From: an uncultured Sunxiuqinia sp.
GTDB taxonomy: Bacteria > Bacteroidota > Bacteroidia > Bacteroidales > Prolixibacteraceae
Assembly (NCBI RefSeq): GCF_947495665.1
Contig: NZ_CANLZV010000021.1
Span: 1 to 52,124, forward strand
DNA: 52,124 nucleotides
Direction of reading: 5' to 3'
Part shown: positions 12,744 through 42,418 of the stretch, piece after piece
Position numbering within the stretch: position 1 is the stretch's first letter
Layout: each line of letters opens with the position of its first letter
Notes under the pieces: generated by a model
Told to the model about the DNA's origin: nothing
Database searches by the model: none
Seen by the model: the letters and a program-made list of their open reading frames with translations, nothing else
Position numbers and translations under genes: made by a program

Positions 12744-12797
12744 ATTTTTTTTGATTAGTTAGTATTAAAAAGATGATCTAACAGTTATTTGTCGATA

Positions 12798-13235: not shown

Positions 13236-13256
13236 ATATTTTCACCATCATCGCCC

Positions 13257-13427: not shown

Positions 13428-13449
13428 TTAAACATAGAACATAATAAAT

Positions 13450-15141: not shown

Positions 15142-15148
15142 ATTACCT

Positions 15149-16798: not shown

Positions 16799-16810
16799 TT
16801 TTTTAGTTGT

Positions 16811-18013: not shown

Positions 18014-18046
18014 TTTTTGGTTTTTAGCTGAAGAGTGGATAGTTAT

Positions 18047-18865: not shown

Positions 18866-18874
18866 AATTGTGCA

Positions 18875-19855: not shown

Positions 19856-19873
19856 TCGTTTTAAATTATTAGA

Positions 19874-20830: not shown

Positions 20831-20843
20831 TCCTGTTCTCCTG

Positions 20844-27371: not shown

Positions 27372-27375
27372 AATG

Positions 27376-27855
27376 CTATTTTTTCCGGTTCTCTTTAACC
27401 ATGTTGTACATATTATCCAAGTCGAAATAAGCAATCAACAAACCGCTGATTGGCAGCACCAGGTAAACCAGTCCCAGCGGTAATCCTAATGCAGCTGACT
27501 TTACCGACAAGAAAAAACGGGTGTAAACCAACCACGATCCGCCAATAACCATAACGGTAAGCGCAAACACAATGACCACCACACTAATGATCATTTCTAG
27601 TTTAAACTTCCGCTCAGGTGAGCTTCGCTGAAGCAGCAAATCGATAGCCAGGTGTTCGCGCTGACCAGCCACATATGCAGCTCCCAGCAAACCTACCCAA
27701 ATCAATAAGAAGCCCGCCAGTTCATCGGTAAAGCTGCTGGGCTCGTTCATAACATAGCGGCTGAAAACCTGCCATAGCACATCCAGCACCAGGATTCCCA
27801 TTAGAAAGACCAGCACCCACTCAATTATTTTATCAATATATTTTCGTACAGTCAT
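27376..27855 (-). CDS. dctQ: TRAP transporter small permease (DctQ)
   Basis: A 159-residue membrane protein with four hydrophobic helices (residues ~13-30, 45-65, 85-108, 125-147). Family motifs seen are VFSRYVMNEPSSFTDELAGFLLIWVGLLGAA and REHLAIDLL. It lies 12 bp after the dctP stop and 4 bp before dctM, the usual P-Q-M operon order. It is the small subunit of the inner-membrane permease. Confidence 0.93.
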   Translation of the reverse strand: MTVRKYIDKIIEWVLVFLMGILVLDVLWQVFSRYVMNEPSSFTDELAGFLLIWVGLLGAAYVAGQREHLAIDLLLQRSSPERKFKLEMIISVVVIVFALTVMVIGGSWLVYTRFFLSVKSAALGLPLGLVYLVLPISGLLIAYFDLDNMYNMVKENRKK

Positions 27856-27867
27856 GTTATTTTGATT

Positions 27868-28851
27868 TTATTCAACCGCCTGAATACGCTTGATGTATGA
27901 ATAGATTACCTCATTATCCCGGTAACTCTCCAGTAAAGGCTGTACCTTTTCAATAAAAGGAGCTTTATCCGGATAATTCACCTTAACACCTGCTTTTTGA
28001 ACTTCCTCCAGGGATTTCTTTTCGGATTCGGCCCACAGTTTACGCTGCAGAACAGCCGACTCATCAGCCGCCTGCTGAATCCATTCCTGCTCCTGAGCGG
28101 ACAACTTATCCCAGATAATCTGGCTAAAAACCAGAACATCGGGGATGGTGGTATGCTCATCCATCGAGTAGAATTTACACACTTCGTAGTGACGTGAGGT
28201 GTAAAGGCTTGGAGGGTTGTTTTCAGCGCCATCAACTACACCACTTTGCAAAGCCGTGTAAAGTTCACCCCATGAAATTGGGGTTGGCGAGCCACCCAGC
28301 GCCTTGGTCATTTCAACGGCCGTAATACTGCGCATGACCCGAATCTTCAAACCAGCCAGGTCATCGGGATGATTGATGGGTTTTGATTTGGTGTAGAAAC
28401 TACGTGATCCGGCATCGTAGTAGGTCAAACCGCGAATCCACTTATCTTCTGTACTCAGCAGCAAGTCTTTTCCGATGGGGCCATCCATAATTTTAAAGGC
28501 ATGCTCTTTGGATTTGAAAATGTAAGGCAAGCCAAAAACTTTGTAGGCATCGGTAAAGCTTTCCATTACGGCAGCCGAAACCTTCGTAATTGCCAAACTT
28601 CCAATCTGAAGTAATTCCACACACTGTTGCTCCGAGCCCAGCTGCTCGGCCGGGTAAATCTCAATCGTTAACTTGCCTTCCGACAATTCGGCTGTTCGCT
28701 GAGCCATAAACTCCATGGCTTGGTGCACCGGGTGGTCCACCGGAAGCCCATGCGCCAGCTTCAACTCCTTTTTAGCCGAAGGGCCCGTACAGGAGAAGCA
28801 ATTTATCAGCATAGCAAGTATGAATAGTTTAGTTGGACTGATTTTAGTCAT
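27868..28851 (-). CDS. dctP: TRAP transporter substrate-binding lipoprotein (DctP)
   Basis: A ~327-residue periplasmic binding protein starting at the ATG at 28851. The longer frame to 29004 overlaps kdgA and is rejected. Motifs are KLAHGLPVDHPVHQAMEFMAQR, YPAEQLGSEQQCVELLQIGSL, LAGLKIRVMRS (the Arg that holds the substrate carboxylate) and GSPTPISWGELYTALQSGVVDGAENNP. The signal ends in a Cys-rich segment (INCFSCTG), suggesting it is lipid-anchored instead of freely soluble. The carboxylate-binding Arg and neighbours support hexuronate or another sugar acid as ligand. Confidence 0.93.
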   Translation of the reverse strand: MTKISPTKLFILAMLINCFSCTGPSAKKELKLAHGLPVDHPVHQAMEFMAQRTAELSEGKLTIEIYPAEQLGSEQQCVELLQIGSLAITKVSAAVMESFTDAYKVFGLPYIFKSKEHAFKIMDGPIGKDLLLSTEDKWIRGLTYYDAGSRSFYTKSKPINHPDDLAGLKIRVMRSITAVEMTKALGGSPTPISWGELYTALQSGVVDGAENNPPSLYTSRHYEVCKFYSMDEHTTIPDVLVFSQIIWDKLSAQEQEWIQQAADESAVLQRKLWAESEKKSLEEVQKAGVKVNYPDKAPFIEKVQPLLESYRDNEVIYSYIKRIQAVE

Positions 28852-28865
28852 TTTATTGTTGTTGG

Positions 28866-29537
28866 TTATTTTTTGTACTTCTGAATGATGGCCAGCGCTT
28901 CCTGGCATTTTTCGGTAATATAGGCATAATTCTTCTGAGCCAGTACCTCTTTGGGGAACAGCTGCGAGCCCATGCCCACGCAGTGTACTCCGGCCTTGAA
29001 CCAAGAACTCAGATTGTCTTCGTCAGGCGAAACACCGCCCGTTGGCATAATGCTGGCATACGGCATTGGCCCCATTACTCCTTTTACAAAATCAGGTCCA
29101 CCCACCGATGAGCCCGGGAAAATCTTCACCACTTCGCATCCCAGTTCATGCGCACGACCAATTTCGCTTACCGAGCCACAACCCGGGCTCCAGGCAATTT
29201 TACGTTTGTTGCAAACCTTAGCCATTCCTTCATCAATCAAAGGTGAAACAATAAAGTTTGCGCCGATGGAAATGTAAAGCGCAGTGGTAGCCTCATCCAC
29301 GATGGACCCAACCCCCATAATCATTTCCGGACACTCTTTGGCAGTCCATTTGTTCAGTTCGCCAAACACTTCTGCCGCAAAATCGCCACGGTTGGTAAAT
29401 TCAAAAACACGAATGCCACCTTCGTAACAAGCTTTTACTACCTGCTTGCACAAATCAACATCAGCGTGATAGAATACCGGCACCAGGCCTGTGGTTTTCA
29501 TTGCTTGCGCTACATCTATTCTTGTAAATCGAGCCAT
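28866..29537 (-). CDS. kdgA: KDPG (2-keto-3-deoxy-6-phosphogluconate) aldolase
   Basis: A 223-residue class I aldolase, start ATG at 29537 (MARFTRIDVAQAMKTTGLVPVFYH). It cleaves KDPG to pyruvate and glyceraldehyde-3-phosphate. Motifs are VFEFTNRGD (catalytic Glu), GANFIVSPL, and VVKIFPGSSVGG (Schiff-base Lys), with MPTGGVSPDEDN for phosphate binding. It lies between kdgK and dctP in one operon and completes the lower hexuronate route. Confidence 0.93.
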   Translation of the reverse strand: MARFTRIDVAQAMKTTGLVPVFYHADVDLCKQVVKACYEGGIRVFEFTNRGDFAAEVFGELNKWTAKECPEMIMGVGSIVDEATTALYISIGANFIVSPLIDEGMAKVCNKRKIAWSPGCGSVSEIGRAHELGCEVVKIFPGSSVGGPDFVKGVMGPMPYASIMPTGGVSPDEDNLSSWFKAGVHCVGMGSQLFPKEVLAQKNYAYITEKCQEALAIIQKYKK

Positions 29538-29692
29538 TTTATCAGTTTTTTTAGTTCGAATTTCGAATGGTTCATGAGTAGATAAAGGAAAGCCAGGCCT
29601 TCCTTTCCCATCCTTTAGATTCCAGGTACTCATTTCCGCTTTCGAAACGGATTGAATTATTATTAAATATCGATACTCCTTTTCCTTGGCTA

Positions 29693-30730
29693 TTATCGGG
29701 CTACACGGCCTGAGGCATCGCCACCCATCAGTTTTTCAACTTCATGGACCGTTACCTGGTTGTAGTCGCCATAAATGGTGTGTTTCAGGCAGGATGCGGC
29801 CACTGCAAATTCCAGCGCTTTTTGGTCATCATTCGGATAGCTTAGCAATCCATAAATCAGTCCACCCATGAACGAATCTCCCCCACCAACACGGTCAACA
29901 ATATGTGTAATTTGATACTGACGTGATTCGTACAATTTTTGGCCATCCCAAAGCACACCAGCCCAGCTGTTGTGGTTAGCATTGATGGAACCACGCAAAG
30001 TCGTAATCACTTTTTTGCATCGTGGGAATTGCGCCATAATTTGTTTTGAAACCGACTCGTAAGCAGCTCCTTCCACATGACCTCCGGTCACATCAACTCC
30101 CTCAGGATGAATACCCAAAACCATGGCTGCATCTTCTTCGTTTCCAAGCACCACATCGGTTCCGGCTACCAATTCAGGCATCACCTCGCCGGCTGTCTTT
30201 CCATAGTTCCACAGATTCTTGCGGTAGTTCAAATCGCAAGAAACCGTAATTCCTTTTTCATTGGCTTTTTTGATGGCTTCCAGACACACATCGGCAGCTC
30301 CCTGCGAAATGGCCGGAGTAATTCCGGTCCAGTGGAACCAGCCGGCTCCTTCAAATACCGCATCCCAATCAATCATGCCTGGTTCAATTTCAGCAATGGC
30401 TGAATGTGCCCGGTCGTAAACCACTTTACTTCCGCGGCTTACAGCACCCGTTTCCAGGAAATAAATCCCTACACGATCACCACCAGTTACAATCTGATCA
30501 ACCCCAACACCATAGCTTTTCAAGTCCATCTTGCAGGCACGGGCAATATCATTTTCGGGCAAGCGAGTTACAAAATCAACCGGAATGCCATAGTTAGCCA
30601 ACGAAACAGCTACGTTGGCTTCACCTCCGCCAAAAGTAGCAGTCAAGCTATCAGACTGGTTAAATCTCAAATATCCGGGTGTTGCCAACCGCAACATAAT
30701 TTCTCCAAACGTAACAACTTTCTTATTCAT
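29693..30730 (-). CDS. kdgK: 2-keto-3-deoxygluconate kinase (PfkB family)
   Basis: A 345-residue ribokinase-family sugar kinase. FGEIMLRLATPGYLRF opens it, FGGGEANVAVSLANYG and CDLNYRKNLW are KDG-kinase-like, LGNEEDA precedes the ATP site, and DRVGGGDSFMGGLIYG holds the anion hole and catalytic Asp. It would phosphorylate 2-keto-3-deoxygluconate for the downstream aldolase. It is the first gene of the kdgK-kdgA-dctPQM operon, with a promoter and palindromic operator upstream. Confidence 0.92.
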   Translation of the reverse strand: MNKKVVTFGEIMLRLATPGYLRFNQSDSLTATFGGGEANVAVSLANYGIPVDFVTRLPENDIARACKMDLKSYGVGVDQIVTGGDRVGIYFLETGAVSRGSKVVYDRAHSAIAEIEPGMIDWDAVFEGAGWFHWTGITPAISQGAADVCLEAIKKANEKGITVSCDLNYRKNLWNYGKTAGEVMPELVAGTDVVLGNEEDAAMVLGIHPEGVDVTGGHVEGAAYESVSKQIMAQFPRCKKVITTLRGSINANHNSWAGVLWDGQKLYESRQYQITHIVDRVGGGDSFMGGLIYGLLSYPNDDQKALEFAVAASCLKHTIYGDYNQVTVHEVEKLMGGDASGRVAR

Positions 30731-30834: not shown

Positions 30835-32238
30835 TCATTGAAATTTGAAATAATTGCGAGCATTGTTGTAGCAAATATTTTCCACCATTTCGCCCAGCAG
30901 TTTCAGGTCGTTCGGGATTTCACCATTCTCGACATCATTCCCCAGCAGGTTACATAAAGTCCGTCTGAAATATTCGTGACGAGTGTACGACAAAAAGCTG
31001 CGTGAATCCGTTAACATTCCCACAAAGCGACTCAGCAATCCCAAGTTCGATAGCGCATTCATTTGCTTTTCCATGCCGTCTTTCTGATCCAGGAACCACC
31101 AGCCTGATCCGTATTGAATTTTACCAGGAACTGATCCATCCTGGAAGTTGCCGATCATGGTGGCATACAACTCATTATCGCGTGGATTGAGGTTATACAA
31201 AATCGTTTGACTCAGTTTGTTCTCCTGATCCAGACGGTCGAGCAATTTGCCCAGCGAAGCTGCTACCGGCTTATCGCCAATGGAGTCAAAGCCCGTATCG
31301 GGACCTAACTTTTTAAACAAGCGGGTATTGTTATTGCGTTGTGCGCCAATATGAAATTGTTGAGTCCAGCCGCGCGAGTGATCCATAATACCAAACTCAT
31401 ACAACATGCACGATTTAAACTTCAGGATTTCGTTTTCATTCAAAGCTTTCAACTGCCGGATTTTATCAAAAACAACGTTAATTTCCACCATGGTATAATC
31501 CTCCGCATAAGCCGTGTCCAGTCCATGATCTGACAAACGACAGCCATTGTCGTGGAAGAACTGGTGACGCTTGTCCAAGGCAACCATGAAAGCATCGAAG
31601 CTATCAATATCCACATTAGCCACCTCGGCTAACTGGTCAACATAGTCATTGAAAAAGTCAACATTTTCAACCATCATTGCCTTGTCCGGACGCCACGCAG
31701 GCAATACCGCCACTTCAAAGCCATCCTCTTTAATAGCCTGATGGTACTCCAAGGAATCCAAAGGATCGTCGGTTGTGCAGATGGTATCAACATTGGCCAT
31801 ACGAATAATGTCGCGGCATTTATAATTGCCGGAGGTCAGTTTTTCATTGCACTCATCCCAAATTTCCCTGGCTGTTTCCGGATTCAAAACTTTGTCAATG
31901 CCGAAGAATTTTTTCAGCTCCAGATGCGTCCAATGGTAAAGCGGATTGCGCAGGGTATGCGGAACTGTTTCCGCCCATTTTTCAAACTTCTCCCAATCGC
32001 TGGCATCGCCGGTGCAATAGCGTTCGTCAACGCCATTGGTGCGCATGGCACGCCATTTATAGTGGTCGCCATACAACCAAATCTGCGTAAGGTTTTCAAA
32101 CGACTTGTTTTCTGCTATTTCCTTAGGAGAAATATGACAGTGGTAATCAAAAATCGGCATTTTAGCCGCATGCTCATGATACAGTTTCCGAGCTGTTTCG
32201 GTATGAAGCAAAAAATGCTCATCCATGAATTTTTTCAT
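30835..32238 (-). CDS. uxaC: Glucuronate/galacturonate isomerase
   Basis: A 467-residue uronate isomerase of the amidohydrolase superfamily. It converts D-glucuronate to D-fructuronate and D-galacturonate to D-tagaturonate. PIFDYHCHISPKEIAENK contains the HxH metal site, and WTHLELKKFFGI, TICTTDDPLDSLEYH and GWWFLDQKDGMEKQM are family signatures. Length and alignment are typical. It lies 79 bp downstream of uxaE, across a stem-loop, in the leftward arm of the hexuronate regulon. Confidence 0.96.
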   Translation of the reverse strand: MKKFMDEHFLLHTETARKLYHEHAAKMPIFDYHCHISPKEIAENKSFENLTQIWLYGDHYKWRAMRTNGVDERYCTGDASDWEKFEKWAETVPHTLRNPLYHWTHLELKKFFGIDKVLNPETAREIWDECNEKLTSGNYKCRDIIRMANVDTICTTDDPLDSLEYHQAIKEDGFEVAVLPAWRPDKAMMVENVDFFNDYVDQLAEVANVDIDSFDAFMVALDKRHQFFHDNGCRLSDHGLDTAYAEDYTMVEINVVFDKIRQLKALNENEILKFKSCMLYEFGIMDHSRGWTQQFHIGAQRNNNTRLFKKLGPDTGFDSIGDKPVAASLGKLLDRLDQENKLSQTILYNLNPRDNELYATMIGNFQDGSVPGKIQYGSGWWFLDQKDGMEKQMNALSNLGLLSRFVGMLTDSRSFLSYTRHEYFRRTLCNLLGNDVENGEIPNDLKLLGEMVENICYNNARNYFKFQ

Positions 32239-32317: not shown

Positions 32318-33565
32318 CTACAAATTAAATAAGCGCTTCAGGTGACGGTCATAGATGTTTTCTTCGACGCAAGCACCAACCACATCAGCATTTTTTTCCA
32401 GCAACGAATAATAGCGTTCGCCCATTTCGGCGGCTACTTTGTAGCCCACGTGAATAAGTTGACGGAAGTTCAGGTTGTAATCCGGGTGCCCCGGAATATG
32501 ACGTAGCGCATTGGCAAATTTTTCGCCCGACCAGCTGTTTACTTCAGCCACCGCGGGCAACTGGCTATCATCAATGTCAATCACATCGGCATACGGTCCA
32601 CACAATTCATCTTTACGCCCCAAAGCGCTGGCGTAAATCTCCTTCGCTGCTTCAAGCGCTTCTCCGTCGGCCACAGCCAGTCCAATCACTTCTTCCAGCC
32701 AAGTGGTTCCTGCGGTTTTTACATGCAGCCCTTTATCGTATTTTTTAATGACATCAGCCATAATCGGGTAAATTGAAAATTTGTCGCTGCCTGAATGAAC
32801 ACTCAGCTTCAAATCTGCCGGCAAACCAAACTCCTTGACCGCGTAATCAATTACCAGTACATCTTCTTCAAATTCTTTGGCAAACTGATCCAAATCACCT
32901 ACGTAATCCACTCCTTTATTAAAACGTCCTGTAAACTTAGGCGCGATCGTTTGTATCGGCACTTTTTTATCGGCCAGCATTTTCAAAATAAAGAACAGGT
33001 CAACCGGCGTTTGTGGCAATTCCACTTCATCCATTGACACTTCTGTAATGAAATTCCCCTCTCCTTTCTTCTCAACCAGGTACTGATAAATGCCGGCTGC
33101 CTGATCGGTTGCTGCTAAAAATTTGACTGCAATCGCAATCAACAACTCGTCATCCACTTGTATGGGCTCTGCAATTCCCGGAATTTGAAGCACTCCCTTG
33201 TATTTTTCGCATGAAGCCAGAAAAGATTCAATGGCTTCCTTGGAACTTTCGTTGCCAATAAAAGCGGCCACATCAAGCGTGAAAAAGTCAGAGGCCTCTA
33301 CAAAAGGAGCCACAGTCGTCAGGTTGATGTGGTCGGCATCCACAAAGTACGGTTTATTCCAGCCCAAAGCTTTCACGGCCGCGTCAGCTTCGGAACGTAC
33401 ATCTGCCGGAAGGGTTTTAACAATGCCGTGCTCGCGGTTCGACTTATTCCACACCGGACTAACCTCAACTCCTGCCTCATTAGCCCTGCTAATTGCCCGT
33501 AACTGAGCTTGTCCCTGATGCGAAAAACGATCGCCAACACCAAAACTATATTTACTTAATTTCAT
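32318..33565 (-). CDS. uxaE: Tagaturonate epimerase (UxaE family)
   Basis: A 415-residue protein of the UxaE family, known to interconvert D-tagaturonate and D-fructuronate so that galacturonate can enter the glucuronate branch. The start KYSFGVGDRFSHQGQAQLRA and segments DADHINLTTV, TIAPKFTGRFNKGVDYVGD, LKLSVHSGSDKFSIYPIM and HIPGHPDYNLNFRQLIHVGYKVAAEMG are recognised family features, with several His and Asp residues suited to metal binding. It is the first gene of the uxaE-uxaC unit, divergent from the LacI regulator. Confidence 0.85.
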   Translation of the reverse strand: MKLSKYSFGVGDRFSHQGQAQLRAISRANEAGVEVSPVWNKSNREHGIVKTLPADVRSEADAAVKALGWNKPYFVDADHINLTTVAPFVEASDFFTLDVAAFIGNESSKEAIESFLASCEKYKGVLQIPGIAEPIQVDDELLIAIAVKFLAATDQAAGIYQYLVEKKGEGNFITEVSMDEVELPQTPVDLFFILKMLADKKVPIQTIAPKFTGRFNKGVDYVGDLDQFAKEFEEDVLVIDYAVKEFGLPADLKLSVHSGSDKFSIYPIMADVIKKYDKGLHVKTAGTTWLEEVIGLAVADGEALEAAKEIYASALGRKDELCGPYADVIDIDDSQLPAVAEVNSWSGEKFANALRHIPGHPDYNLNFRQLIHVGYKVAAEMGERYYSLLEKNADVVGACVEENIYDRHLKRLFNL

Positions 33566-33601: not shown

Positions 33602-33624
33602 CACGGAGAAAAACACACTCCGTG
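33602..33624. repeat. Inverted repeat beside operator 1
   Basis: CACGGAG (33602-33608) and CTCCGTG (33618-33624) are a perfect 7-bp inverted repeat that runs into the operator at 33620. It would lie in the leader of uxaE and could compete with operator DNA structure or fold in the transcript. Confidence 0.4.
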
Positions 33625-33636
33625 TTCGCACACGAA
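33620..33636. promoter_or_regulatory. Hexuronate regulon operator, copy 1
   Basis: CCGTGTTCGCACACGAA, built around the inverted repeat CGTGT-tcgc-ACACG. An identical 17-bp copy lies exactly 90 bp further right. It is on the uxaE side of the divergent region, ~55 bp from the uxaE start. It is the probable binding site of the adjacent LacI-family regulator. Confidence 0.75.
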
Positions 33637-33709: not shown

Positions 33710-33726
33710 CCGTGTTCGCACACGAA
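33710..33726. promoter_or_regulatory. Hexuronate regulon operator, copy 2
   Basis: Identical to copy 1. A TAGCTTTG (33743-33750), matching the plus-strand -7 box TAnnTTTG, lies 16 bp downstream, so this copy covers the -33 region of the regulator's own promoter. Two identical operators 90 bp apart in a divergent region suggest autoregulation with possible DNA looping. Confidence 0.75.
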
Positions 33727-33781: not shown

Positions 33782-34879
33782 AAAGTTATCAAACCGACAA
33801 GAAGAATACGAATCAAGGACATTGCCGAAAAGGCCAATGTATCCATCGGCACGGTTGACCGGGTAATTCATAAGCGTGGCGAGGTATCACCAGCCACACG
33901 TGATAAAATCATGAAAATAATTGAAGAACTGGACTACCACCCGAATATACTGGCGAGCACACTGGCATCCAAAAAGGTCTATTCGCTGGGAGTAATCATC
34001 CCCGAACCTCAAACAGAAGAGGCTTACTGGAACAAACCGCTGATTGGGATCAGCCGGGCTTTCAATGAAATTCAGCAATACGGCATTGAAATTGAAATTC
34101 ATCAATTTAAACAGAATGATGTTGCAGATTTTAAGGCAAAGGCTGAGAGACTTTTAGAAAAACCTTACGATGGTGTGATGCTGGCGCCTTTCTTCTCGCG
34201 CGAATCCAAGGCCTTTATACAGAAACTGGAAGAACGTAATATTCCTTTTGTCTTCATCGACTCGAACATAAAAGACAGCAGCAAGTTAAGCTACATTGGT
34301 CAAAACTCCTTTCAAAGTGGAACCCTGGCAGCTAAACTGCTCGACTTTTCCGTTCCGAACGATGCCACCATCCTGCTTGTACATGTGGCCAAGGAAATGG
34401 ATAACCAGAACCATTTAATGCAGCGCGAAATGGGCTTTTACAACTATTTCAAAGAAAAGAAGAGCCCGGCAGACAGAAAAATTCTCACGGTTGAAATCAA
34501 CGATGCCGCTGATGATCATTGTTATCTGAAACTCGAAAATGAAATTCAAAAAGCGGGAAATGTCAAAGGAATTTTTGTCACCAATTCACGGGTTTACAAG
34601 ATTGCCGAATTTGTGGAAGCACATCCCATCCCCGACCTACGCCTGGTTGGGCACGACTTAATTCCCAACAACTCCGAATTTGTACGAAAAGGTGTTGTTG
34701 ACTTCCTGATCTGCCAACGTCCGGAAGAACAGGGTTATCAAGCCATTGTTACCTTGTTTCAGCACCTGATTCTGAAGAAAACAGTGCCTTCGGAAAATTA
34801 CACGTCAATTGATATAATAACCAAAGAAAACCTGGATTTCTACCAGGAGTTTAATACAAATAACTATGGAACCAATTAG
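33782..34879 (+). CDS. LacI-family regulator of hexuronate genes; start region frameshifted or non-canonical
   Basis: A ~365-residue LacI-family repressor. The HTH lies at RIRIKDIAEKANVSIGTVDRVIHKRGEVS, upstream of the first in-frame ATG (33911), and the periplasmic-binding-protein-like sensor (YSLGVIIPEPQTEEAYW onward) follows. No ATG, GTG or TTG starts the HTH in this frame, which is open from 33746. An ATG at 33763 reads MFNEK-stop in the next frame. Removing one A from the A5 run at 33773-33777 would give MFNENRKVIKPTRRIRIKD, a normal N-terminus. So either a homopolymer error or indel, or an unusual start, is present. It overlaps the next gene by 14 bp. The stated 5' limit is the beginning of the homologous frame. 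Confidence 0.85.
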   Translation, partial: KVIKPTRRIRIKDIAEKANVSIGTVDRVIHKRGEVSPATRDKIMKIIEELDYHPNILASTLASKKVYSLGVIIPEPQTEEAYWNKPLIGISRAFNEIQQYGIEIEIHQFKQNDVADFKAKAERLLEKPYDGVMLAPFFSRESKAFIQKLEERNIPFVFIDSNIKDSSKLSYIGQNSFQSGTLAAKLLDFSVPNDATILLVHVAKEMDNQNHLMQREMGFYNYFKEKKSPADRKILTVEINDAADDHCYLKLENEIQKAGNVKGIFVTNSRVYKIAEFVEAHPIPDLRLVGHDLIPNNSEFVRKGVVDFLICQRPEEQGYQAIVTLFQHLILKKTVPSENYTSIDIITKENLDFYQEFNTNNYGTN

Positions 34880-35717
34880 TTTTAAAGACCTAAGCGGCAA
34901 AGTATGTGTCATCACAGGCGGTGCTGGTGTTATCGGAGTTGAAATGGTAAAAGCTATGGCCTCTGTTGGAGTTAAAATTGCCATTGCCGATATTAATAAA
35001 GAAGTAGCCGAAAAAGTAGCTGCAGAAATAGCCAGTGAATTTAAATCACAGGTAATTGGCGTTGAAGCCAATGTGCTGGACCGGGCTTCGCTTGAAAAAG
35101 CCAATGAAGAAATCAAACAAAAATTAGGACCGGTTGAAGTCCTGATCAATGGCGCCGGTGGTAACCACCCTTCAGCCACCACCAAAGTGGAGCAATTGCT
35201 CGAGGAAAACATCGACAATTTGGAAGACTCTTTCTACGGATTGGAGATGGACGGCTTTGACAAGGTATTCGCCTTGAATTTTAAAGGCACCTTGCTTCCC
35301 TCCATGGTTTTTACCAAAGACATGCTCAAAAACAGAAAAGGAGTTATCCTGAACATTTCCTCCATGAACTCCTATAAGCCATTAACAAAAATCCCGGCAT
35401 ACTCAGCCGCCAAAGCATCGGTCAACAACTTTACCGAATGGCTGTCGGTTCACCTGGCAAAAGTGGGCATTCGGGTTAACGCTATTGCTCCAGGGTTCTT
35501 CATTACCAACCAAAACCGTTTCTTGGTAACCGATGAAAAAACAGGCAACTTCTCCCCTCGCGGACAAAAAATTGTGGACAACACCCCGATGGGCAAGTTT
35601 GGCGAACCGGAAGATTTGCAAGGCGCTACCTTGTTTTTGATCTCCGACATTTCTAGCTTCATCACCGGAGTAGTACTTCCGGTTGACGGCGGATACAGCG
35701 CCTTTGGCGGCGTATAA
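34866..35717 (+). CDS. uxuB: SDR-family D-mannonate oxidoreductase (fructuronate reductase)
   Basis: A 283-residue short-chain dehydrogenase. The NAD(P)-binding motif is CVITGGAGVIGVEMVKAMA, with LINGAGGNHPSATT and catalytic SSMNSYKPLTKIPAYSAAKAS (Ser, Tyr-x-x-x-Lys). The insertion ENIDNLEDSFYGLEMDGFDKVF after the NAG motif is typical of the SDR branch that reduces D-fructuronate to D-mannonate. In context it acts after UxaC and UxaE. Its start overlaps the regulator gene by 14 bp, indicating translational coupling. Confidence 0.87.
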   Translation: MEPISFKDLSGKVCVITGGAGVIGVEMVKAMASVGVKIAIADINKEVAEKVAAEIASEFKSQVIGVEANVLDRASLEKANEEIKQKLGPVEVLINGAGGNHPSATTKVEQLLEENIDNLEDSFYGLEMDGFDKVFALNFKGTLLPSMVFTKDMLKNRKGVILNISSMNSYKPLTKIPAYSAAKASVNNFTEWLSVHLAKVGIRVNAIAPGFFITNQNRFLVTDEKTGNFSPRGQKIVDNTPMGKFGEPEDLQGATLFLISDISSFITGVVLPVDGGYSAFGGV

Positions 35718-35807
35718 TCGGTTGTTACTTCATGGTCAATTTCGATCATCTGGTAATTTAATTCTCATATAAATAATCTAGTCTCCAATTTCTAAAATCG
35801 TTTAAAC

Positions 35808-36890
35808 ATGAGTCTTGAACTAAAAAATAATTGCCAATATTCCTTATTGGTTCCCACAAGTATGGGGGTGCGCATTACCCCGGTTAATGGTCAGCCCGTG
35901 CATAGCAGCGATACCTTTAAAATGCAGGCCACCAGCGCCGAAACCAATGTAGCCAGCATTGCTTCATACTTGGGCTTACCCGTTAAAGTGCTGACAACTT
36001 TTGTAAAAGGAAGCCCGATTGCTCAGTTTATAAAAAGCAATCTAAAGAGCCGCCACATGGACTACGAGGGTCCGGAAGTAGAACAGGGCGATCCGTGGGG
36101 ATACCGCCATCAGTTTAACATTGCCGATAGCGGTTACGGATCACGGGGACCTCGTGTACAAAACGACCGTGCCGGTGAAGTGGGTCGCACGCTCAATGTC
36201 AAAGACTTTGACTTGGAACGTATTTTTGGTGAAGAAGGCGTACAAATCGTTCACCTTTCCGGCTTAATCGCGGCCCTTTCGCCCGAAACAAGCGCGTTTT
36301 GCCTGGAGATTGCACGAGCAGCCAAAAAGCACGGCACCCGTATTTCCTTCGACCTGAACTACCGTGCTTCGTTCTGGAAAGGCCGCGAGCAGGAACTACG
36401 TGCAAACTTTACGGAAATCGCATCCGTAACAGATATACTGATTGGCAATGAAGAAGATTTCCAGCTTTGCCTCGGCATTCAAGGCCCCGAAGCTGGCGGA
36501 AAAGGAATTGAAGAGGAAATTGAAGGATTTAAAGGCATGATCGGGCGCGTCAAAGAAGCCTTCCCTAACGCTTCTGTATTCGCCAATACCTTGCGTGAGG
36601 TTGTTAGCGTGAATGAGCATTTGTGGGGCGCGATTATGCTGGAAGGAGAAAACAACTGGCAAGTTATTGAGCCCCGAACCATCAACGTACTTGACCGCAT
36701 TGGCGGAGGCGATGGTTTTGTTGGCGGCTTGCTTTATGGAATTCTGAAGGGGTGGGATCCCGAAAAATGGCCCCAGTTTGGATGGGCGACCGGAGCTATG
36801 GCCACCACCTTCCTGACCGACTATGCGCAGCCCGCCGATGAAGAAATGGTCTGGAGCATCTGGGAAGGCAACGCCAGGGTGAAGCGATAA
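35808..36890 (+). CDS. PfkB-family carbohydrate kinase, sugar-acid kinase-like
   Basis: A 360-residue ribokinase-family kinase related to but distinct from KdgK. SFDLNYRASFWKG, LIGNEEDFQLCLGI, and DRIGGGDGFVGGLLYGIL (anion hole and catalytic Asp) are visible. The N-terminus has MGVRITPVNG, and GYGSRGPRVQNDRAGEV sits where KdgK has the sugar-contact loop, so the substrate may differ. A second KDG kinase is possible. Given the downstream LarA-like epimerase and Gnd, a gluconate-type kinase is an alternative. The gap to uxuB is 90 bp without obvious signals. Confidence 0.82.
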   Translation: MSLELKNNCQYSLLVPTSMGVRITPVNGQPVHSSDTFKMQATSAETNVASIASYLGLPVKVLTTFVKGSPIAQFIKSNLKSRHMDYEGPEVEQGDPWGYRHQFNIADSGYGSRGPRVQNDRAGEVGRTLNVKDFDLERIFGEEGVQIVHLSGLIAALSPETSAFCLEIARAAKKHGTRISFDLNYRASFWKGREQELRANFTEIASVTDILIGNEEDFQLCLGIQGPEAGGKGIEEEIEGFKGMIGRVKEAFPNASVFANTLREVVSVNEHLWGAIMLEGENNWQVIEPRTINVLDRIGGGDGFVGGLLYGILKGWDPEKWPQFGWATGAMATTFLTDYAQPADEEMVWSIWEGNARVKR

Positions 36891-36915
36891 ATGCATTAAC
36901 CATTGAGCCAATTAC

Positions 36916-37350
36916 TATTTACAAATTACAAGCATGAACTCAGAAGAACTAAAAAAGCGGTTCAAAGTTTTTGCATTGAGAATAATTAAACTCTCTGATC
37001 GGTTGCCACATAACTTAACAGGGCAAACGATTGCGAAACAAATTATTCGTTCAGGAACATCGCCTGGCGCAAACTATCGGTCTGCTTGTCTGGGGAAATC
37101 TGATAGAGATTTTCTGAATAAATTGAAAATAGTCGAAGAAGAGCTTGATGAAACGCTTTATTGGTTGGAACTGATTATTGAGGCAGGATTGCTTAAGCCT
37201 GCCTTACTTGATGACTTAATAAAAGAAAATCAAGAGCTTTTAAAAATAATCGTGAGTTCGATTAAAACCATGAAGCAAAAAATGAACCAGGGGAAAAGCT
37301 GAACCAGCTGGATCAGAAATAGTAAATTGCAAATAGCTAAATTGTAAATA
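36916..37350. repeat. Imperfect inverted flanks around the S23-type orphan
   Basis: TATTTACAAATTAC (36916-36929), just before the start codon, matches 12 of 14 bases of TATTTACAATTTAG, the reverse complement of 37337-37350 just before larA-like. A second pair (CAATTACTATT at left; GCAATTTACTATT, reverse complement of 37319-37331) extends the similarity. This AT-rich flanking DNA differs from the tight spacing of the surrounding operon and may mark an insertion. Confidence 0.45.
36934..37302 (+). CDS. Four-helix-bundle protein (23S rRNA intervening-sequence, S23 family)
   Basis: A 122-residue helical protein of the S23/IVP family. Hallmarks are the N-terminal VFALRIIKLSDRLP, the central QIIRSGTSPGANYRSAC and DFLNKLKIVEEELDETLYWLELI, followed by a last Lys-rich helix. 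Members occur inside rRNA intervening sequences or as free-standing genes in Bacteroidota; their cellular role is unsettled. Here it interrupts a sugar-acid operon and is flanked by imperfect inverted AT-rich repeats, which suggests insertion of a mobile or selfish cassette. Confidence 0.88.
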   Translation: MNSEELKKRFKVFALRIIKLSDRLPHNLTGQTIAKQIIRSGTSPGANYRSACLGKSDRDFLNKLKIVEEELDETLYWLELIIEAGLLKPALLDDLIKENQELLKIIVSSIKTMKQKMNQGKS

Positions 37351-37356
37351 AAGAAG

Positions 37357-38646
37357 ATGTTATATTACGAAATAGGTTCAACAGAACATGAATTGACCGC
37401 GGAAGACCTAAAAAAAGGGCTTTACACGGCATTGGACAAGCTTAGCGGAATTAACAAGGTGCTGGCTATTCCTCCGGATTATACACGCTTACCCAGTCGT
37501 TCGGGAGAACTAACCGAATTTGCCTGGCAGTACTATGGCGATAAGCTCACGGATGTGCTTCCGGCCTTAGGCACCCACTCGCCCATGACCGATGAGCAAA
37601 TTGCGCACATGTTTGGCAGCTTGCCCAAATCACTCATTCGCGAGCACGACTGGCGGAATGATGTGGTGAATGTAGGCGAGGTTCCGGCTGAATTTGTAAA
37701 GGAAGTATCGGAAGGAGCAGTCGACTTTCCATGGCCTGCACAAGTCAACAAACTTTTGCTTTCCGGAAATTTCGATTTGATTCTATCCATCGGGCAGGTT
37801 GTTCCACACGAGGTGGTTGGCATGGCCAATTACAACAAAAATGTGTTTGTGGGCACGGGTGGCGTTGAAGGAATCAATAAAAGTCATTTTGTAGGGGCCG
37901 CATACGGCATGGAGCGCATGATGGGACATGCCGACACACCGGTACGCAAAATCTTTAATTACGCCTCGGATAAATTCACCAATCACCTGCCGCTACTCTA
38001 CGTACAAACCGTGGTTGGTCTGGACAAAACCGATGGCAAAGTGAAAACCCGTGGTTTATTTATTGGTGATGACTATGAGGTGTTTGACAAAGCGGCCAAG
38101 CTTTCGCTGCAAGTCAACTTTGAGATGCTGGACAAGCCTTTGAAGAAAGTGGTCGTCTGGCTCGATCCCACAGAATTTAAGTCAACCTGGCTGGGCAACA
38201 AATCGGTGTACCGTACTCGCATGGCTATTGACGACGATGGTGAACTTATCGTGCTGGCGCCGGCACTGAAAGAGTTTGGCGAGGACAAGGAAATTGATCG
38301 CTTGATTCGGAAGTACGGTTACTTTGGCACTCCGGCTACCTTAAAAGCCTGTGATGAAAACGAAGAACTTCGCAACAACCTGAGTGCAGCGGCTCACCTG
38401 ATTCACGGTTCTTCCGAAGGCCGTTTCAGCATTACGTATTGCCCGGGCAAAAAATCCGGTAACCTGACCAAAGAGGAGATTGAGAGTGTTGGCTTCAACT
38501 ATGCTGACATCGACGAAGTTACAGCACGTTACAATCCCGAAACGCTGAAAGATGGTTACAATACCTTGCCCGATGGAGAAGAAATTTTCTATATTTCCAA
38601 TCCGGCCATTGGCTTGTGGGCCTTTAAAGACCGGTTTAAGTATTAG
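37357..38646 (+). CDS. LarA-family (DUF2088) nickel-pincer racemase/epimerase homologue
   Basis: A 429-residue LarA homologue. DYTR (residues 41-44) matches the substrate/cofactor DxTR loop, and GTHSPMT gives His74. PHEVVGMANYNK gives His151 and Lys161, and NKSH gives His177. The His151-Lys161-His177 spacing (10 and 16 residues) equals that of His174, Lys184 and His200 in Lactobacillus plantarum LarA. There the Lys tethers the nickel-pincer nucleotide and the last His binds nickel. Functional cofactor binding is therefore likely. Family members racemise or epimerise 2-hydroxy acids, including aldonates. In this operon a D-mannonate/D-gluconate 2-epimerase role is plausible but unproven. No larB, larC or larE is present here. 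Confidence 0.85.
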   Translation: MLYYEIGSTEHELTAEDLKKGLYTALDKLSGINKVLAIPPDYTRLPSRSGELTEFAWQYYGDKLTDVLPALGTHSPMTDEQIAHMFGSLPKSLIREHDWRNDVVNVGEVPAEFVKEVSEGAVDFPWPAQVNKLLLSGNFDLILSIGQVVPHEVVGMANYNKNVFVGTGGVEGINKSHFVGAAYGMERMMGHADTPVRKIFNYASDKFTNHLPLLYVQTVVGLDKTDGKVKTRGLFIGDDYEVFDKAAKLSLQVNFEMLDKPLKKVVVWLDPTEFKSTWLGNKSVYRTRMAIDDDGELIVLAPALKEFGEDKEIDRLIRKYGYFGTPATLKACDENEELRNNLSAAAHLIHGSSEGRFSITYCPGKKSGNLTKEEIESVGFNYADIDEVTARYNPETLKDGYNTLPDGEEIFYISNPAIGLWAFKDRFKY

Positions 38647-38699
38647 GAGCAGAAATAGCCTTAAACATTCAGAAAGGCTGGCATTCAAAAACTTGACTC

Positions 38700-39692
38700 A
38701 TGAAGTTTGATCAGATAAATTGGGGCATAATTGGCTGTGGAAATGTGACGGAAGTCAAAAGCGGACCGGCTTTTCAAAAAGCGGAGCACTCCAGCTTGGT
38801 TGCAGTTATGCGGCGCGACAAAGAAAAAGCAGCCGATTATGCCAAGCGGCACGGCGTTCCGAAATGGTACCACCAAGCGGATGGTTTGATTAATGATCCG
38901 GAGGTGAATGCCATATACATCGCTACCCCACCCGACACACACGCCCAATACGCCATTCAGGCCATGCGTGCCGGCAAACCGGTGTATGTCGAAAAACCGA
39001 TGGCTCTAAATCATGCCGAGTGTCAGCAGATGATTGAAGTCTCCAAAGAAACCGGAATGCCACTGTTTGTAGCCTATTACCGCCGCACGCTCCCTGCATT
39101 TTTAAAAATGAAGGAACTGGTGGAAAGTGGCGTCATTGGCAAGCCGATTAGCGTGAGCATTACGCTGGTTAAGGGCGCTTCAGAACAGGATAAGAACACA
39201 TCGAATGACAATTGGCGGGTGGATCCTAAAGCTGCGGGGGCCGGCTATTTTTTCGATCTGGCTTCGCATCAGCTCGACTACCTTGATTTTTTGTTTGGCC
39301 CAATCACCCGGGTAGCCGGTACAGCTGTTAACCGGAGCGGCTTGTATCGGGCTGAAGATACGGTTGTTGCCAGTTTTGCGATGGAAAGCGGCGTGGTAGG
39401 AAACGGACTTTGGAGTTTTGTTGCTGACGAATCCGCTACAAAAGATGACTTGGAAATCATTGGTACAAAAGGAAAAATTAACTTACCCAGTTTTCAGCAT
39501 ACCGACCTGAAGCTAACAACGGCCAAAGGTACGCTGAGCTTCAGCTTCCAAAACCCGGAGAATATTTCGTATAACCTGGTAGACCAAGTGGTACAAAGCC
39601 TGCGGGGGGAGGCCGAATGTGTAAGCACCGGAGTTTCTGCAGCACGCACCAATTGGGTCATGGAACAAATTGTTCAGGATTATTATCACTGA
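38700..39692 (+). CDS. Gfo/Idh/MocA-family NAD(P)-dependent oxidoreductase
   Basis: A 330-residue sugar oxidoreductase. WGIIGCGNVTEVKSGPAF is the Rossmann motif, YIATPPDTHAQYAIQAM follows, and VYVEKPMALN carries the conserved EKP. FDLASHQLDYLDFLFGP supplies the catalytic-region D-x-x-x-H pair. The family oxidises sugars, sugar acids or inositols. It follows larA-like by 53 bp in the plus-strand operon. The substrate is probably a hexuronate-related sugar or aldonate but cannot be named. Confidence 0.9.
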   Translation: MKFDQINWGIIGCGNVTEVKSGPAFQKAEHSSLVAVMRRDKEKAADYAKRHGVPKWYHQADGLINDPEVNAIYIATPPDTHAQYAIQAMRAGKPVYVEKPMALNHAECQQMIEVSKETGMPLFVAYYRRTLPAFLKMKELVESGVIGKPISVSITLVKGASEQDKNTSNDNWRVDPKAAGAGYFFDLASHQLDYLDFLFGPITRVAGTAVNRSGLYRAEDTVVASFAMESGVVGNGLWSFVADESATKDDLEIIGTKGKINLPSFQHTDLKLTTAKGTLSFSFQNPENISYNLVDQVVQSLRGEAECVSTGVSAARTNWVMEQIVQDYYH

Positions 39693-39795
39693 CAAAGTTG
39701 AAAAAAACAACGAAAGCCCTATGATAATGGCTATTTTTGACATTTAAAACAAACATAACCACCGCTGCTAAGTCTGGCGGCCACAAACGAGGAGC

Positions 39796-40923
39796 ATGAA
39801 ATTTATTATTGACGATAAAATACCCTACATCAAGGGCGCACTGGAGCCTTTTGGAGATGTTATTTACTTGCCGGGCCCCAAAACCACACCCGAAATTGTG
39901 CAGGATGCCGACGCGATTGTTACCCGTACGCGTACCATTTGCAACGAAAGCCTGCTTGGTAATTCATCGGTCAAAATGATTGCCACGGCCACCATTGGCT
40001 ACGATCATATTGACACCGAATATTGCAAACAAGCAGGTATTGAATGGACCAACGCGCCGGGTTGTAACAGCAAGTCGGTGGAGCAGTATGTGCTTTCGGC
40101 GTTGCTGGTTCTGGCAGAGCAGAAAGGTTTCGAACTTAAAGGCAAAACCATCGGGATTATTGGCGTTGGGCAAGTGGGTTCAAAAGTGGCCCGTGTTTGC
40201 GAGCTGCTCGGAATGAACGTGCTGCTGAACGACCCGCCACGCGAGCGAGCAGAAGGCCCCGAACAGTTTGTCAGTTTTCAGCATATCATCGCAAAAGCTG
40301 ATATCATTACATTCCACGTCCCTTTAACCATGCAAGGCGAAGATGCCACGTTTCACATGGCCGACACCCTGTTTTTCGAATCCTTGCAGCAATGTCCTAT
40401 TATTCTGAACACCTGCCGCGGCGAAGTGATCGATACCTTTGCTGCCGAAACAGCCATTGAGCGCGGACAAGTTTCGGGCATGGTAATGGATTGCTGGGAA
40501 CGGGAGCCACAGATTGACCAAAACCTGCTGCAACTGGTTGATTTGGCCACTCCACACATTGCCGGCTATTCCAAAGACGGAAAAGCAAACGGAACAACCA
40601 TGAGTGTCCAAGCCATTAGTCGGTTCTTCAATCTTGGAATTGATGACTGGCAACCGCAGGGAGTCGACCTTCCGGAGCAAACAAAAATTCATTTGAATGG
40701 TTTAAATCGCACAGAAGAGGCTATTATTCGCGAAGCCGTGCTATTCACCTACGACATTCGGGAAGACGACCAACGCTTACGCACACAACCTGAGCTGTTT
40801 GAACAGCTGCGTGGCGATTATCCGGTTCGGCGCGAATACCCAGTCTTTCACATTACCCACGAAGGAGTGGATGAAAAAATCCTGGAAAAATTAAGCAAAC
40901 TGGGATTCAATATTGAAAATTAA
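39796..40923 (+). CDS. pdxB: 4-phosphoerythronate dehydrogenase-like protein (PdxB)
   Basis: A 375-residue D-2-hydroxyacid dehydrogenase. DADAIVTRTRT, KMIATATIGYDHIDTEYC, GIIGVGQVGSKVARVCELLGM (NAD site), NTCRGEVIDT, DCWEREPQID and ATPHIAGYSKDGKANGT are typical, and the C-terminal dimerisation domain (~295-375) is PdxB-specific. PdxB serves pyridoxal-phosphate synthesis, so its place between sugar-acid genes is unusual. It may be a housekeeping gene caught in the operon or act on a sugar-acid phosphate. A clear GAGGAG ribosome-binding site precedes the start; the 103-bp upstream gap may hold its own promoter. Confidence 0.88.
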   Translation: MKFIIDDKIPYIKGALEPFGDVIYLPGPKTTPEIVQDADAIVTRTRTICNESLLGNSSVKMIATATIGYDHIDTEYCKQAGIEWTNAPGCNSKSVEQYVLSALLVLAEQKGFELKGKTIGIIGVGQVGSKVARVCELLGMNVLLNDPPRERAEGPEQFVSFQHIIAKADIITFHVPLTMQGEDATFHMADTLFFESLQQCPIILNTCRGEVIDTFAAETAIERGQVSGMVMDCWEREPQIDQNLLQLVDLATPHIAGYSKDGKANGTTMSVQAISRFFNLGIDDWQPQGVDLPEQTKIHLNGLNRTEEAIIREAVLFTYDIREDDQRLRTQPELFEQLRGDYPVRREYPVFHITHEGVDEKILEKLSKLGFNIEN

Positions 40924-40966
40924 CATGAATTAGCAAACATAAAAAAAACAATAAAAGAGCAATACC

Positions 40967-42418
40967 ATGACAAAATTAGCAGACATCGGTTTAATTGGGT
41001 TAGCCGTAATGGGCGAAAACCTGGTATTAAACATGGAAAGTAAAGGCTATACGGTAGCCGTTTATAACCGCACTGTTGAGAAAGTAGACAAATTCATCAA
41101 GGGACGTGGCGCCGGCAAAAACTTCATCGGAGCGCACTCCATCAAAGAGCTTTGTGCCTCGCTGCAAAAACCCCGTAAGGTAATGATGCTGGTTAAAGCC
41201 GGACAACCGGTTGATGACTTTATCGATTTGATTATTCCTCATTTGGAAGAAGGTGACATCATCATTGACGGTGGAAACTCACACTTCCCCGACACCATTC
41301 GTCGCACCAAATACGTTGAAAGCAAAGGATTGCTGTATATCGGAACCGGGGTTTCAGGTGGTGAAGAAGGCGCACTGAAAGGGCCCTCTATGATGCCAGG
41401 CGGATCGCCAACTGCATGGCCTGCTGTCAAAGACATTTTCCAGTCGGTTGCTGCCAAGGTAGAAGATGGCTCTCCCTGTTGCGACTGGGTGGGTGAAGAT
41501 GGTGCCGGACACTTTGTAAAAATGGTACACAACGGGATTGAGTACGGCGATATGCAAATCATTTGCGAGGCCTACCAATTGATGAAAGAAATGCTGGGCA
41601 TGAGTTCCGATGAAATGCACGAAGTATTTAAAGAGTGGAACAAAGGTGACCTGGATTCTTACCTGATCGAGATTACCCGCGATATTCTGGGTTATAAAGA
41701 AGATGGCGAAGCACTGGTGGAGAAAATTCTGGATACGGCCGGACAAAAAGGCACCGGGAAATGGACTGGCGTTTCAGCGCTCGACCTCGGTATTCCGTTA
41801 ACCTTGATTGGAGAATCGGTGTTTGCCCGTTGTTTGTCAGCTCAAAAAGATTTACGCGTGGAAGCATCCAAAGTCATTGAAGGCCCCAAGGTGAAATTTG
41901 AAGGCGATAAAGCCCAAATGATCAACGACCTGAAGGACGCCTTGTTTGGAGCCAAAATCATTTCGTATGCGCAAGGTTACAACCTGATGATGGAAGCGGC
42001 CAAAGAATACAACTGGAACCTGAATTATGGCGGCATTGCCCTAATGTGGCGTGGCGGCTGTATCATTCGTTCGGTTTTCTTGGCCGATATCAAAAAAGCA
42101 TTCGACAAAAACCCAACACTGGCCAACTTGCTGCTTGACCCTTATTTCAAAGGAAAAGTAGAAAAAGCCCAGGCCGGGTGGCGTCGGGTTTGTGCAACGG
42201 CCCTGTCGTATGGAATTCCGGTTCCTGCGTTAACATCGGCTCTTTGCTATTTTGACGGCTTTCGCAGCGAGCGCTTGCCAGCCAACCTATTGCAAGCACA
42301 ACGTGACTATTTTGGAGCGCACACTTACGAGCGTATCGACAAGCCACGTGGCGAATTCTTCCACACCAACTGGACTGGTCGTGGCGGCGACACCGCTTCA
42401 ACCACCTACGACGTATAA
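40967..42418 (+). CDS. gnd: 6-phosphogluconate dehydrogenase, decarboxylating
   Basis: A 483-residue enzyme converting 6-phosphogluconate to ribulose-5-phosphate and CO2 with NAD(P)+ reduction. GLAVMGENLVLNMESKGYTVAVYNRT is the dinucleotide motif. GGNSHFPDT, GTGVSGGEEGALKGPSMMPGG, MVHNGIEYGDMQ (catalytic Lys-x-x-His-Asn), GTGKWTGVSALDLGIP and the C-terminal FHTNWTGRGGDT are invariant family segments. Length is normal. No zwf or pgl gene is adjacent, so its substrate in this context could come from gluconate phosphorylation. It is the last gene before a strong terminator. Confidence 0.97.
   Translation: MTKLADIGLIGLAVMGENLVLNMESKGYTVAVYNRTVEKVDKFIKGRGAGKNFIGAHSIKELCASLQKPRKVMMLVKAGQPVDDFIDLIIPHLEEGDIIIDGGNSHFPDTIRRTKYVESKGLLYIGTGVSGGEEGALKGPSMMPGGSPTAWPAVKDIFQSVAAKVEDGSPCCDWVGEDGAGHFVKMVHNGIEYGDMQIICEAYQLMKEMLGMSSDEMHEVFKEWNKGDLDSYLIEITRDILGYKEDGEALVEKILDTAGQKGTGKWTGVSALDLGIPLTLIGESVFARCLSAQKDLRVEASKVIEGPKVKFEGDKAQMINDLKDALFGAKIISYAQGYNLMMEAAKEYNWNLNYGGIALMWRGGCIIRSVFLADIKKAFDKNPTLANLLLDPYFKGKVEKAQAGWRRVCATALSYGIPVPALTSALCYFDGFRSERLPANLLQAQRDYFGAHTYERIDKPRGEFFHTNWTGRGGDTASTTYDV

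Follow-up and report, generated by a model that had tools for sequence, protein, structure and literature searches.

A candidate gluconate route of hexuronate breakdown around a group 18 LarA homologue in an uncultured Sunxiuqinia

What becomes of D-mannonate in a hexuronate operon that carries the genes leading to it and no gene for mannonate dehydratase (uxuA)? The question is raised by a 52,124-nucleotide stretch of DNA from an uncultured Sunxiuqinia sp. (contig NZ_CANLZV010000021.1 of assembly GCF_947495665.1; the whole stretch is called the window here), the source genome being 4.73 Mb at a completeness of 99.95%. A preliminary description placed the system at 34866-42418 and proposed that a LarA-family epimerase, a PfkB kinase and 6-phosphogluconate dehydrogenase (Gnd) replace mannonate dehydratase by way of gluconate. 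The genes that it named are real: uxuB, the larA homologue, gnd, uxaC and uxaE are full-length open reading frames (ORFs) with profile scores over the cut-offs, and the operon is indeed without uxuA. The coordinates enclose uxuB, the kinase, larA and gnd; uxaC and uxaE lie outside, in a divergent arm. The minus-strand arm is dctMQP-kdgA-kdgK-uxaC-uxaE, and the plus-strand arm is lacI-uxuB-kinX-IVP-larA-gfo/idh-pdxB-gnd, where KinX is a working name for the PfkB kinase at 35808-36890 (+). Gene identities in the window were assigned by comparing the NCBIfam and Pfam profile scores of its ORFs with curated cut-offs (Table 1).

As judged from sequence, it is probable that mannonate is converted to gluconate, 6-phosphogluconate and then ribulose-5-phosphate, with the epimerase and the kinase acting in either order. 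We infer all of the substrates, the order epimerase then kinase, and the regulon. The TRAP transporter DctMQP, probably the hexuronate uptake system, would import glucuronate and galacturonate. UxaC would isomerise both uronates, UxaE would convert tagaturonate to fructuronate, and UxuB would convert fructuronate to D-mannonate. The group 18 LarA homologue would then turn D-mannonate into D-gluconate by epimerisation at C2, using the nickel-pincer nucleotide (NPN) that the larB, larC and larE products make. KinX, a kinase distinct from KdgK, would phosphorylate D-gluconate to 6-phosphogluconate, which Gnd would decarboxylate to ribulose-5-phosphate. One reduced cofactor would be spent by UxuB and one returned by Gnd. 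KdgK and KdgA would be left to process 2-keto-3-deoxygluconate (KDG) of other origin or, in those relatives that have UxuA, KDG made by that enzyme.

The LarA homologue, its presumed cofactor and its partners

The LarA homologue scores over the cut-off of NF052594, the NCBIfam model of a nickel-dependent "putative hexonate epimerase", and no other protein of the source genome matches Lar_N. Its closest solved structure by sequence is PDB 4nar (E 3e-36), presumably the Thermotoga GntE protein. The NPN-site residues are in place: D41, R44, H74, H151, K161 and H177 do not vary in any of the 40 aligned sequences and are, by motif and spacing, the counterparts of residues D72, R75, H108, H174, K184 and H200 in the LarA of L. 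plantarum. The same 40 sequences all have E152 and V153, the E-V loop, and W278, which would be the alpha-11 tryptophan; these are the two elements, E-V/S loop and alpha-11 W, that the comparison with the signature of groups 18 to 20 covered. According to PMC7583248, the E-V loop and the W are named for LarA groups 18, 19 and 20, the epimerisation of D-mannonate to D-gluconate was shown in 2020 for groups 19 and 20 (GntE1/GntE2), and a hexonate substrate of group 18 is a hypothesis only, put forward by Desguin and co-workers. The protein of the window is proposed to be an NPN-dependent D-mannonate/D-gluconate 2-epimerase, which would provide group 18 with a concrete candidate substrate and pathway.

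The cofactor genes are present as well. The preliminary description had counted their absence as fatal to its proposal, and the search of the genome finds larE, larC and larB side by side at C15 of the source genome (G000), all over cut-off, with a gene for a NikR-type regulator before them and, after them, a gene whose 231-aa product matches a membrane domain. Since there is a single Lar_N match in this genome, only one client of the cofactor genes is known in it. Among 61 genomes, namely the source genome and 60 relatives, LarC and LarE are over cut-off in the same 24, and LarB is in 23 of those 24.

The last enzyme of the route is likewise encoded once: the single Gnd match of the source genome is in this cluster, and zwf and pgl are at C7, with no Gnd there. 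Another genome, G058 (99% completeness), has gnd within its LarA cluster and gave no match to zwf, so that a sugar acid is the expected origin of its 6-phosphogluconate. Gnd is over cut-off in 42/61 genomes, which divide into 37 of the 38 with LarA and 5 of the 23 others. Consumption of 6-phosphogluconate by Edd was rejected, as the only ILVD/EDD protein is IlvD (1053 bits), encoded beside ilvB, ilvH and ilvC.

The linkage of these genes is conserved. LarA of this type exceeds the cut-off in 38/61 genomes and is present in 33 of the 37 genomes of the family to which the window belongs. In 39 loci from 37 relatives, the LarA cluster contains Gnd in 36 and KinX in 32. A scan of named records gave at least 591 pattern matches and at least 573 relatives, of which the best 80 were kept, with close relatives over-represented; 43 of the 80 are flanked by 5 kb or more on each side (full context; the other 37, with less than 5 kb on one side, were left out), and their neighbours were counted within 6 kb of LarA. 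Genes in these loci and in those of the relatives were labelled by their best BLAST hits to the window proteins and a few further proteins. Judged by best hit, 40 of the full-context loci have uxuB near LarA; with a minimum identity of 38% the number is 38, and with one of 50% it is 25. The gnd gene is near LarA in 38. The association of uxuB and gnd with LarA, each at 38/43, is thus not due to chance. The titles of the best 80 records name Bacteroidota, Verrucomicrobia, Planctomycetota, Ignavibacteria, Kiritimatiellae and Lentisphaerae, and LarA clusters with gnd occur also in Planctomycetota and Ignavibacteriota records. An Ignavibacteria locus reads uxaE-like, kdgA-like, uxuB (two ORFs), uxuA, a second PfkB type, larA, pdxB, gnd, transketolase and kduI. 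These counts suggest that breaking down uronates by way of gluconate is no oddity of Thermotoga.

KinX is proposed to be a gluconokinase or a mannonate kinase, two substrates that sequence cannot tell apart. It is encoded in 46 of the 80 named-record loci and in 28 of the 43 with full context. Another kinase type is near LarA in 11 of the 34 loci without KinX (the second PfkB type in 8 and a PFK-family protein in 3), and KinX co-occurs with another type in none of the 80 loci, the kinase types being split by lineage. Since only a kinase encoded immediately ahead of LarA could receive the label of the second PfkB type, the proximity of this type to LarA follows in part from its definition. In the full-context loci this second type is found 5 times and a HAD protein 3 times, one of these three with the PFK partner. 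None of the 61 genomes has a thermoresistant-type gluconate kinase (GntK) over the TIGR01313 cut-off; FGGY gluconokinase was not searched for. These loci supply candidate genes for the kinase step. A PFK-family protein of the PRK14072 type and a HAD protein take the place of KinX near LarA at L066:10671-12998, L073:10331-12575, L208 and L236, and this HAD protein could remove a wrongly phosphorylated epimer.

The PdxB gene next to gnd encodes the only strong PdxB match of the source genome (the next match has 105 bits). Being over the PdxB cut-off and without a second strong copy, PdxB is probably needed for vitamin B6. It was rejected as a dedicated enzyme of the pathway both because it is the only strong PdxB and because the Gfo/Idh-PdxB-Gnd triplet also occurs away from LarA, persisting in G017, G018 and G036 (L098, L099 and L100) at loci without KinX or LarA. 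Gnd is reported to be inhibited by 4-phosphoerythronate (PMC6449344); as this is the substrate of PdxB, PdxB may protect Gnd.

Regulator and layout of the locus

The operator CGTGTTCGCACACG stands in two exact copies between the divergent arms. When three mismatches were allowed, the match count of the operator scan was reached by 14/100 shuffles, and therefore the case for the operator rests on its exactness and its conservation. Of the 27 relatives' loci with lacI, 25 have an operator match with up to two mismatches in the 600 bp that precede the listed start of this gene. The two arms would together form a LacI-controlled hexuronate regulon.

The start codon of lacI is probably the ATC at 33788, because the first ATG, GTG or TTG falls within the DNA-binding domain. 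The same is seen in 20 of 28 LacI genes of such clusters (that of the window counted), which have no ATG, GTG or TTG before this domain; in all 20, an ATC or ATA occupies the position of the ATG of G007 (L065) or an adjacent one. A rare start codon would be unusual here, if conserved.

Table 1. Features of the hexuronate locus, in window coordinates
Feature	Position	Strand	Basis
dctM, dctQ, dctP, TRAP transporter	25908..29004	-	Pfam DctM 385 bits, DctQ 100, DctP 289
kdgA, KDPG aldolase	28866..29633	-	NCBIfam PRK07114, 375 bits, cut-off 275
kdgK, 2-keto-3-deoxygluconate kinase, PfkB	29693..30730	-	PDB 2afb KDG kinase, E 7e-99; no NCBIfam model over cut-off, KdgK models included
uxaC, uronate isomerase	30835..32238	-	NCBIfam PRK02925, 674 bits, cut-off 387
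uxaE, tagaturonate epimerase	32318..33565	-	Pfam UxaE, 198 bits, cut-off 27
LacI-type operator, copy 1, CGTGTTCGCACACG	33621..33634	.	exact match
LacI-type operator, copy 2	33711..33724	.	exact match, 90 bp from copy 1
LacI-family regulator	33788..34879	+	ORF; first ATG/GTG/TTG 33911, inside domain
uxuB, fructuronate reductase / D-mannonate oxidoreductase, SDR type	34866..35717	+	NCBIfam PRK08277, 372 bits, cut-off 281
KinX, PfkB-family kinase	35808..36890	+	Pfam PfkB 77 bits; NCBIfam over cut-off: none
23S-rRNA-IVP-type four-helix protein	36934..37302	+	Pfam 23S_rRNA_IVP, 59 bits
LarA homologue, group 18	37357..38646	+	NCBIfam NF052594, 664 bits, cut-off 500
Gfo/Idh oxidoreductase	38700..39692	+	Pfam GFO_IDH_MocA
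pdxB, 4-phosphoerythronate dehydrogenase	39796..40923	+	NF001309, 452 bits, cut-off 434
gnd, decarboxylating 6-phosphogluconate dehydrogenase	40967..42418	+	TIGR00873, 762 bits, cut-off 427

The dctP ORF as listed has an over-long start and overlaps kdgA. The 23S-rRNA-IVP-type gene between the kinase and LarA is found in the window and in four loci of relatives (L044, L045, L048 and L056). Elsewhere in the window, a single run at 11718-23117 holds alpha-L-fucosidases, an MFS protein, a TIM-barrel protein, a PhyH dioxygenase and a glycyl-radical enzyme with its radical-SAM partner. An IS110-type transposase ORF at 24458-25102 has an AraC regulator on one side and the TRAP genes on the other. 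A CreD-like ORF at 45453-46298 covers profile positions 147-428 only, its start being either missing or in another frame.

Arguments against the route and other readings

Several observations weigh against the gluconate route. The substrates assigned to its enzymes all follow from sequence and gene context, and hexonate as the substrate of group 18 is itself hypothetical. Zwf is present in the same genome and offers Gnd a conventional supply of substrate as well, and G058, the supporting case, is a single draft genome without larB, larC or larE. These three cofactor genes all have no match over cut-off in 17 of the 38 LarA genomes. A recognised kinase is absent from 9 of the 43 full-context loci (in two of these nine the HAD protein stands by itself), and gnd is absent within 6 kb in five (four Verrucomicrobia and one Phycisphaerales). 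Finally, UxuA above 300 bits occurs together with LarA in 19/38 LarA genomes.

The LarA genomes without the cofactor genes are G001, G007, G008, G009, G011, G013, G015, G023, G025, G027, G028, G029, G030, G031, G033, G035 and G058, of which G035 is a single-contig genome that is 99% complete. LarA from these genomes keeps every one of the active-site residues listed above. In three same-genus pairs without cofactor genes, the nonsynonymous divergence (dN) of LarA is 0.08-0.13; the synonymous divergence (dS) is 1.66 in one of them (dN/dS 0.08) and saturated in the other two. Five pairs with cofactor genes gave a dN/dS of 0.01-0.05 for LarA where it was computable. Decay of LarA in the genomes without cofactor genes is unlikely by this coarse test (dN/dS 0.08 in one pair, active site kept). 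The absence of the cofactor genes has no significant link with the presence of UxuA, which is found in 8 of the 21 LarA genomes with the genes and in 11 of the 17 without (p 0.19). Uptake of the cofactor, another route of synthesis or a different cofactor would explain larA without larB, larC and larE. The converse, cofactor genes without larA, has already been published (PMC11796402); in G018, G026 and G052, larB, larC and larE are present and a Lar_N match was not found.

A wider reading can be offered tentatively, at somewhat less than an even chance. KinX would be a new PfkB specificity, for gluconate or mannonate, and one of three kinase types recruited to group 18 LarA in several phyla, while LarA would work in many Prolixibacteraceae that are unable to make NPN and either scavenge the cofactor from their neighbours or replace it. 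The LarA genomes without larB, larC and larE make the sharing of the nickel-pincer cofactor between cells testable.

The explanations weighed here are not all mutually exclusive. The one that survives best among the others, and is nevertheless unlikely, has mannonate converted to KDG by either of two further proteins of the source genome, a UxuA-family protein at C2 or a dehydratase at C9, and then processed by KdgK and KdgA, with LarA, KinX and Gnd serving another sugar acid. The kdgK and kdgA genes do sit in the divergent arm. The C2 ORF, the only one of its family in this genome, exceeds the Pfam UxuA cut-off (175 bits against 23.7) and keeps the HPDDPP, C-GS, H-R and DH motifs. However, it is under both UxuA-specific NCBIfam cut-offs (144.6 vs 191 and 114 vs 199.6), which no protein of the source genome exceeds, and it is without the N-terminal part conserved in the compared UxuA sequences. 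Its setting is also a different one: the neighbourhood (L054:163-9353) holds mannosylglycerate-hydrolase-like, cellobiose-2-epimerase-like, RraA-like, SDR and lactonase-like genes, and no operator copy with up to three mismatches is found in the 19 kb around it. The C2 protein may be a mannonate dehydratase of a mannose-oxidation cluster. As to C9, the source genome has four enolase-superfamily proteins (enolase, two that are nearest to other activities, and the sugar-acid dehydratase type at C9), none of which is over the NCBIfam cut-off of ManD (best score 198, cut-off 550). The score of 198 is that of the C9 dehydratase, which with 244 is under the galactonate dehydratase cut-off too.

The distribution of UxuA among the relatives bears on the same point. 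UxuA above 300 bits is present in 24/61 genomes, and five further genomes, the source genome included, have weaker matches. It is within the cluster in 3 of the 39 relatives' loci, and near LarA in 8 of the 80 named-record loci and 5 of the 43 with full context. In 14 relatives UxuA is encoded apart from the cluster, in a different type of uxuB-uxuA pair that does not show the operator pattern. G023 carries one of these pairs as an additional copy, besides a cluster-type uxuB-uxuA elsewhere with an exact operator copy about 70 bp upstream of uxuB; G024 has the other type of UxuA, with uxuB unrecognised. The gluconate route of the preliminary description is well backed by its genomic context, and "replacing" says too much, since UxuA coexists with LarA in relatives and the source genome keeps both a divergent UxuA-family gene and the C9 dehydratase. 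The search of the genome for uxuA that it called for yielded nothing over the specific cut-offs, the C2 gene being the divergent one without an operator copy.

Next in standing, and doubtful, is the order in which the kinase acts first: KinX would phosphorylate D-mannonate to 6-phosphomannonate, and the LarA homologue would epimerise the phosphate ester to 6-phosphogluconate. The gene order uxuB-kinX-larA is compatible with this, and the same order of reactions was measured in extracts of Lactobacillus suebicus, with the genes unknown, according to PMC6978723. The characterised relatives of groups 19 and 20, however, use unphosphorylated mannonate (PMC7583248), which favours the order with epimerisation of mannonate first.

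A reading in which KinX is a further KDG kinase beside KdgK, with a peripheral part for the LarA homologue, is very improbable. KinX does belong to the PfkB family, its closest solved relative is the KDG kinase 2afb (E 8e-30), and it keeps DLNxR, as in KDG kinases. In a PfkB tree of 60 rows, however, KinX forms one clade of 34 rows on a very long stem, apart from KdgK with a support of 100/100, and it has SAETNV where KdgK has GGEANV. KinX is thus outside the KdgK clade and under the KdgK cut-offs, under which the KdgK of the cluster itself also falls. G018, which has no LarA of this type, has the same cluster with uxuB-uxuA and KdgK, and kinX is absent from this UxuA-type locus. The second-KdgK assignment was rejected on the clade, the motif, the G018 locus and the exchange of kinases across loci, where another type is near LarA in 11 of the 34 without KinX. 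Least probable is that KinX and PdxB form a branch of the 2-ketogluconate type, in which, as with KguK and KguD, a kinase and a 2-hydroxyacid dehydrogenase yield 6-phosphogluconate: a loose family match speaks for it, and the PdxB score, the probable vitamin B6 role of the genome's only strong PdxB and the triplets without KinX or LarA speak against it.

Comparison with known systems

No published description of this version (LarA/gluconate, mannonate kinase, PfkB gluconate kinase, Bacteroidetes) was found in a search of titles and the beginnings of abstracts whose scope left out most subscription journals. The route as such is already known from Thermotoga; new here are the LarA subgroup, the kinases and the phyla. 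In the Bacteroidota, the UxuR2 regulon of Algoriphagus marincola HL-49 similarly combines a LacI-family regulator, a TRAP transporter and hexuronate genes, and in the available text of PMC5507952 no mention was found of LarA, a kinase or a Gnd route for it. The locus shares with the canonical isomerase pathway (UxuA, KdgK, KdgA) the upper part as well as KdgK and KdgA, and differs from it in that the source genome has no UxuA over the specific NCBIfam cut-offs.

According to PMC6978723, a gluconate route was proposed for Thermotoga by Rodionova in 2012, and the UxaR regulon of Thermotoga was studied in 2013 (PMC3750489). In vitro evidence for the epimerase step of the Thermotoga route followed in 2020 (PMC7583248). 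In T. maritima this regulon comprises gnd, uxaE, uxaD, gntE and gntK together with kdgA-kdgK-uxuB-uxuA (PMC3750489). As in the Sunxiuqinia locus, UxaE, an epimerase of the LarA superfamily, a kinase and Gnd occur together, with the KdgA/KdgK branch alongside (PMC3750489, PMC6978723). The differences, as far as these sources describe the regulon, are that LarA is of group 18 here and GntE of group 20 there, that the kinase is of the PfkB family here and called GntK there, that the regulator is of the LacI type here and of the GntR family there, and that uxuA is kept in the Thermotoga regulon. With GntE1 and GntE2 of groups 19 and 20, the LarA homologue shares the superfamily, the group signature and the proposed reaction; those two were assayed, whereas group 18 is a hexonate epimerase by hypothesis only (PMC7583248).

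The closest likeness in reactions outside Thermotoga is with the mannonate kinase/6-phosphomannonate 2-epimerase route of L. suebicus, in which the UxaC-UxaE-UxuB part is similarly joined to 6-phosphogluconate and Gnd. As described in PMC6978723, that route differs in that the kinase acts first, the genes are unknown and the flux drains into phosphoketolase. A redox-balanced route is of interest for the fermentation of pectin, as has been argued for the route of L. suebicus (PMC6978723).

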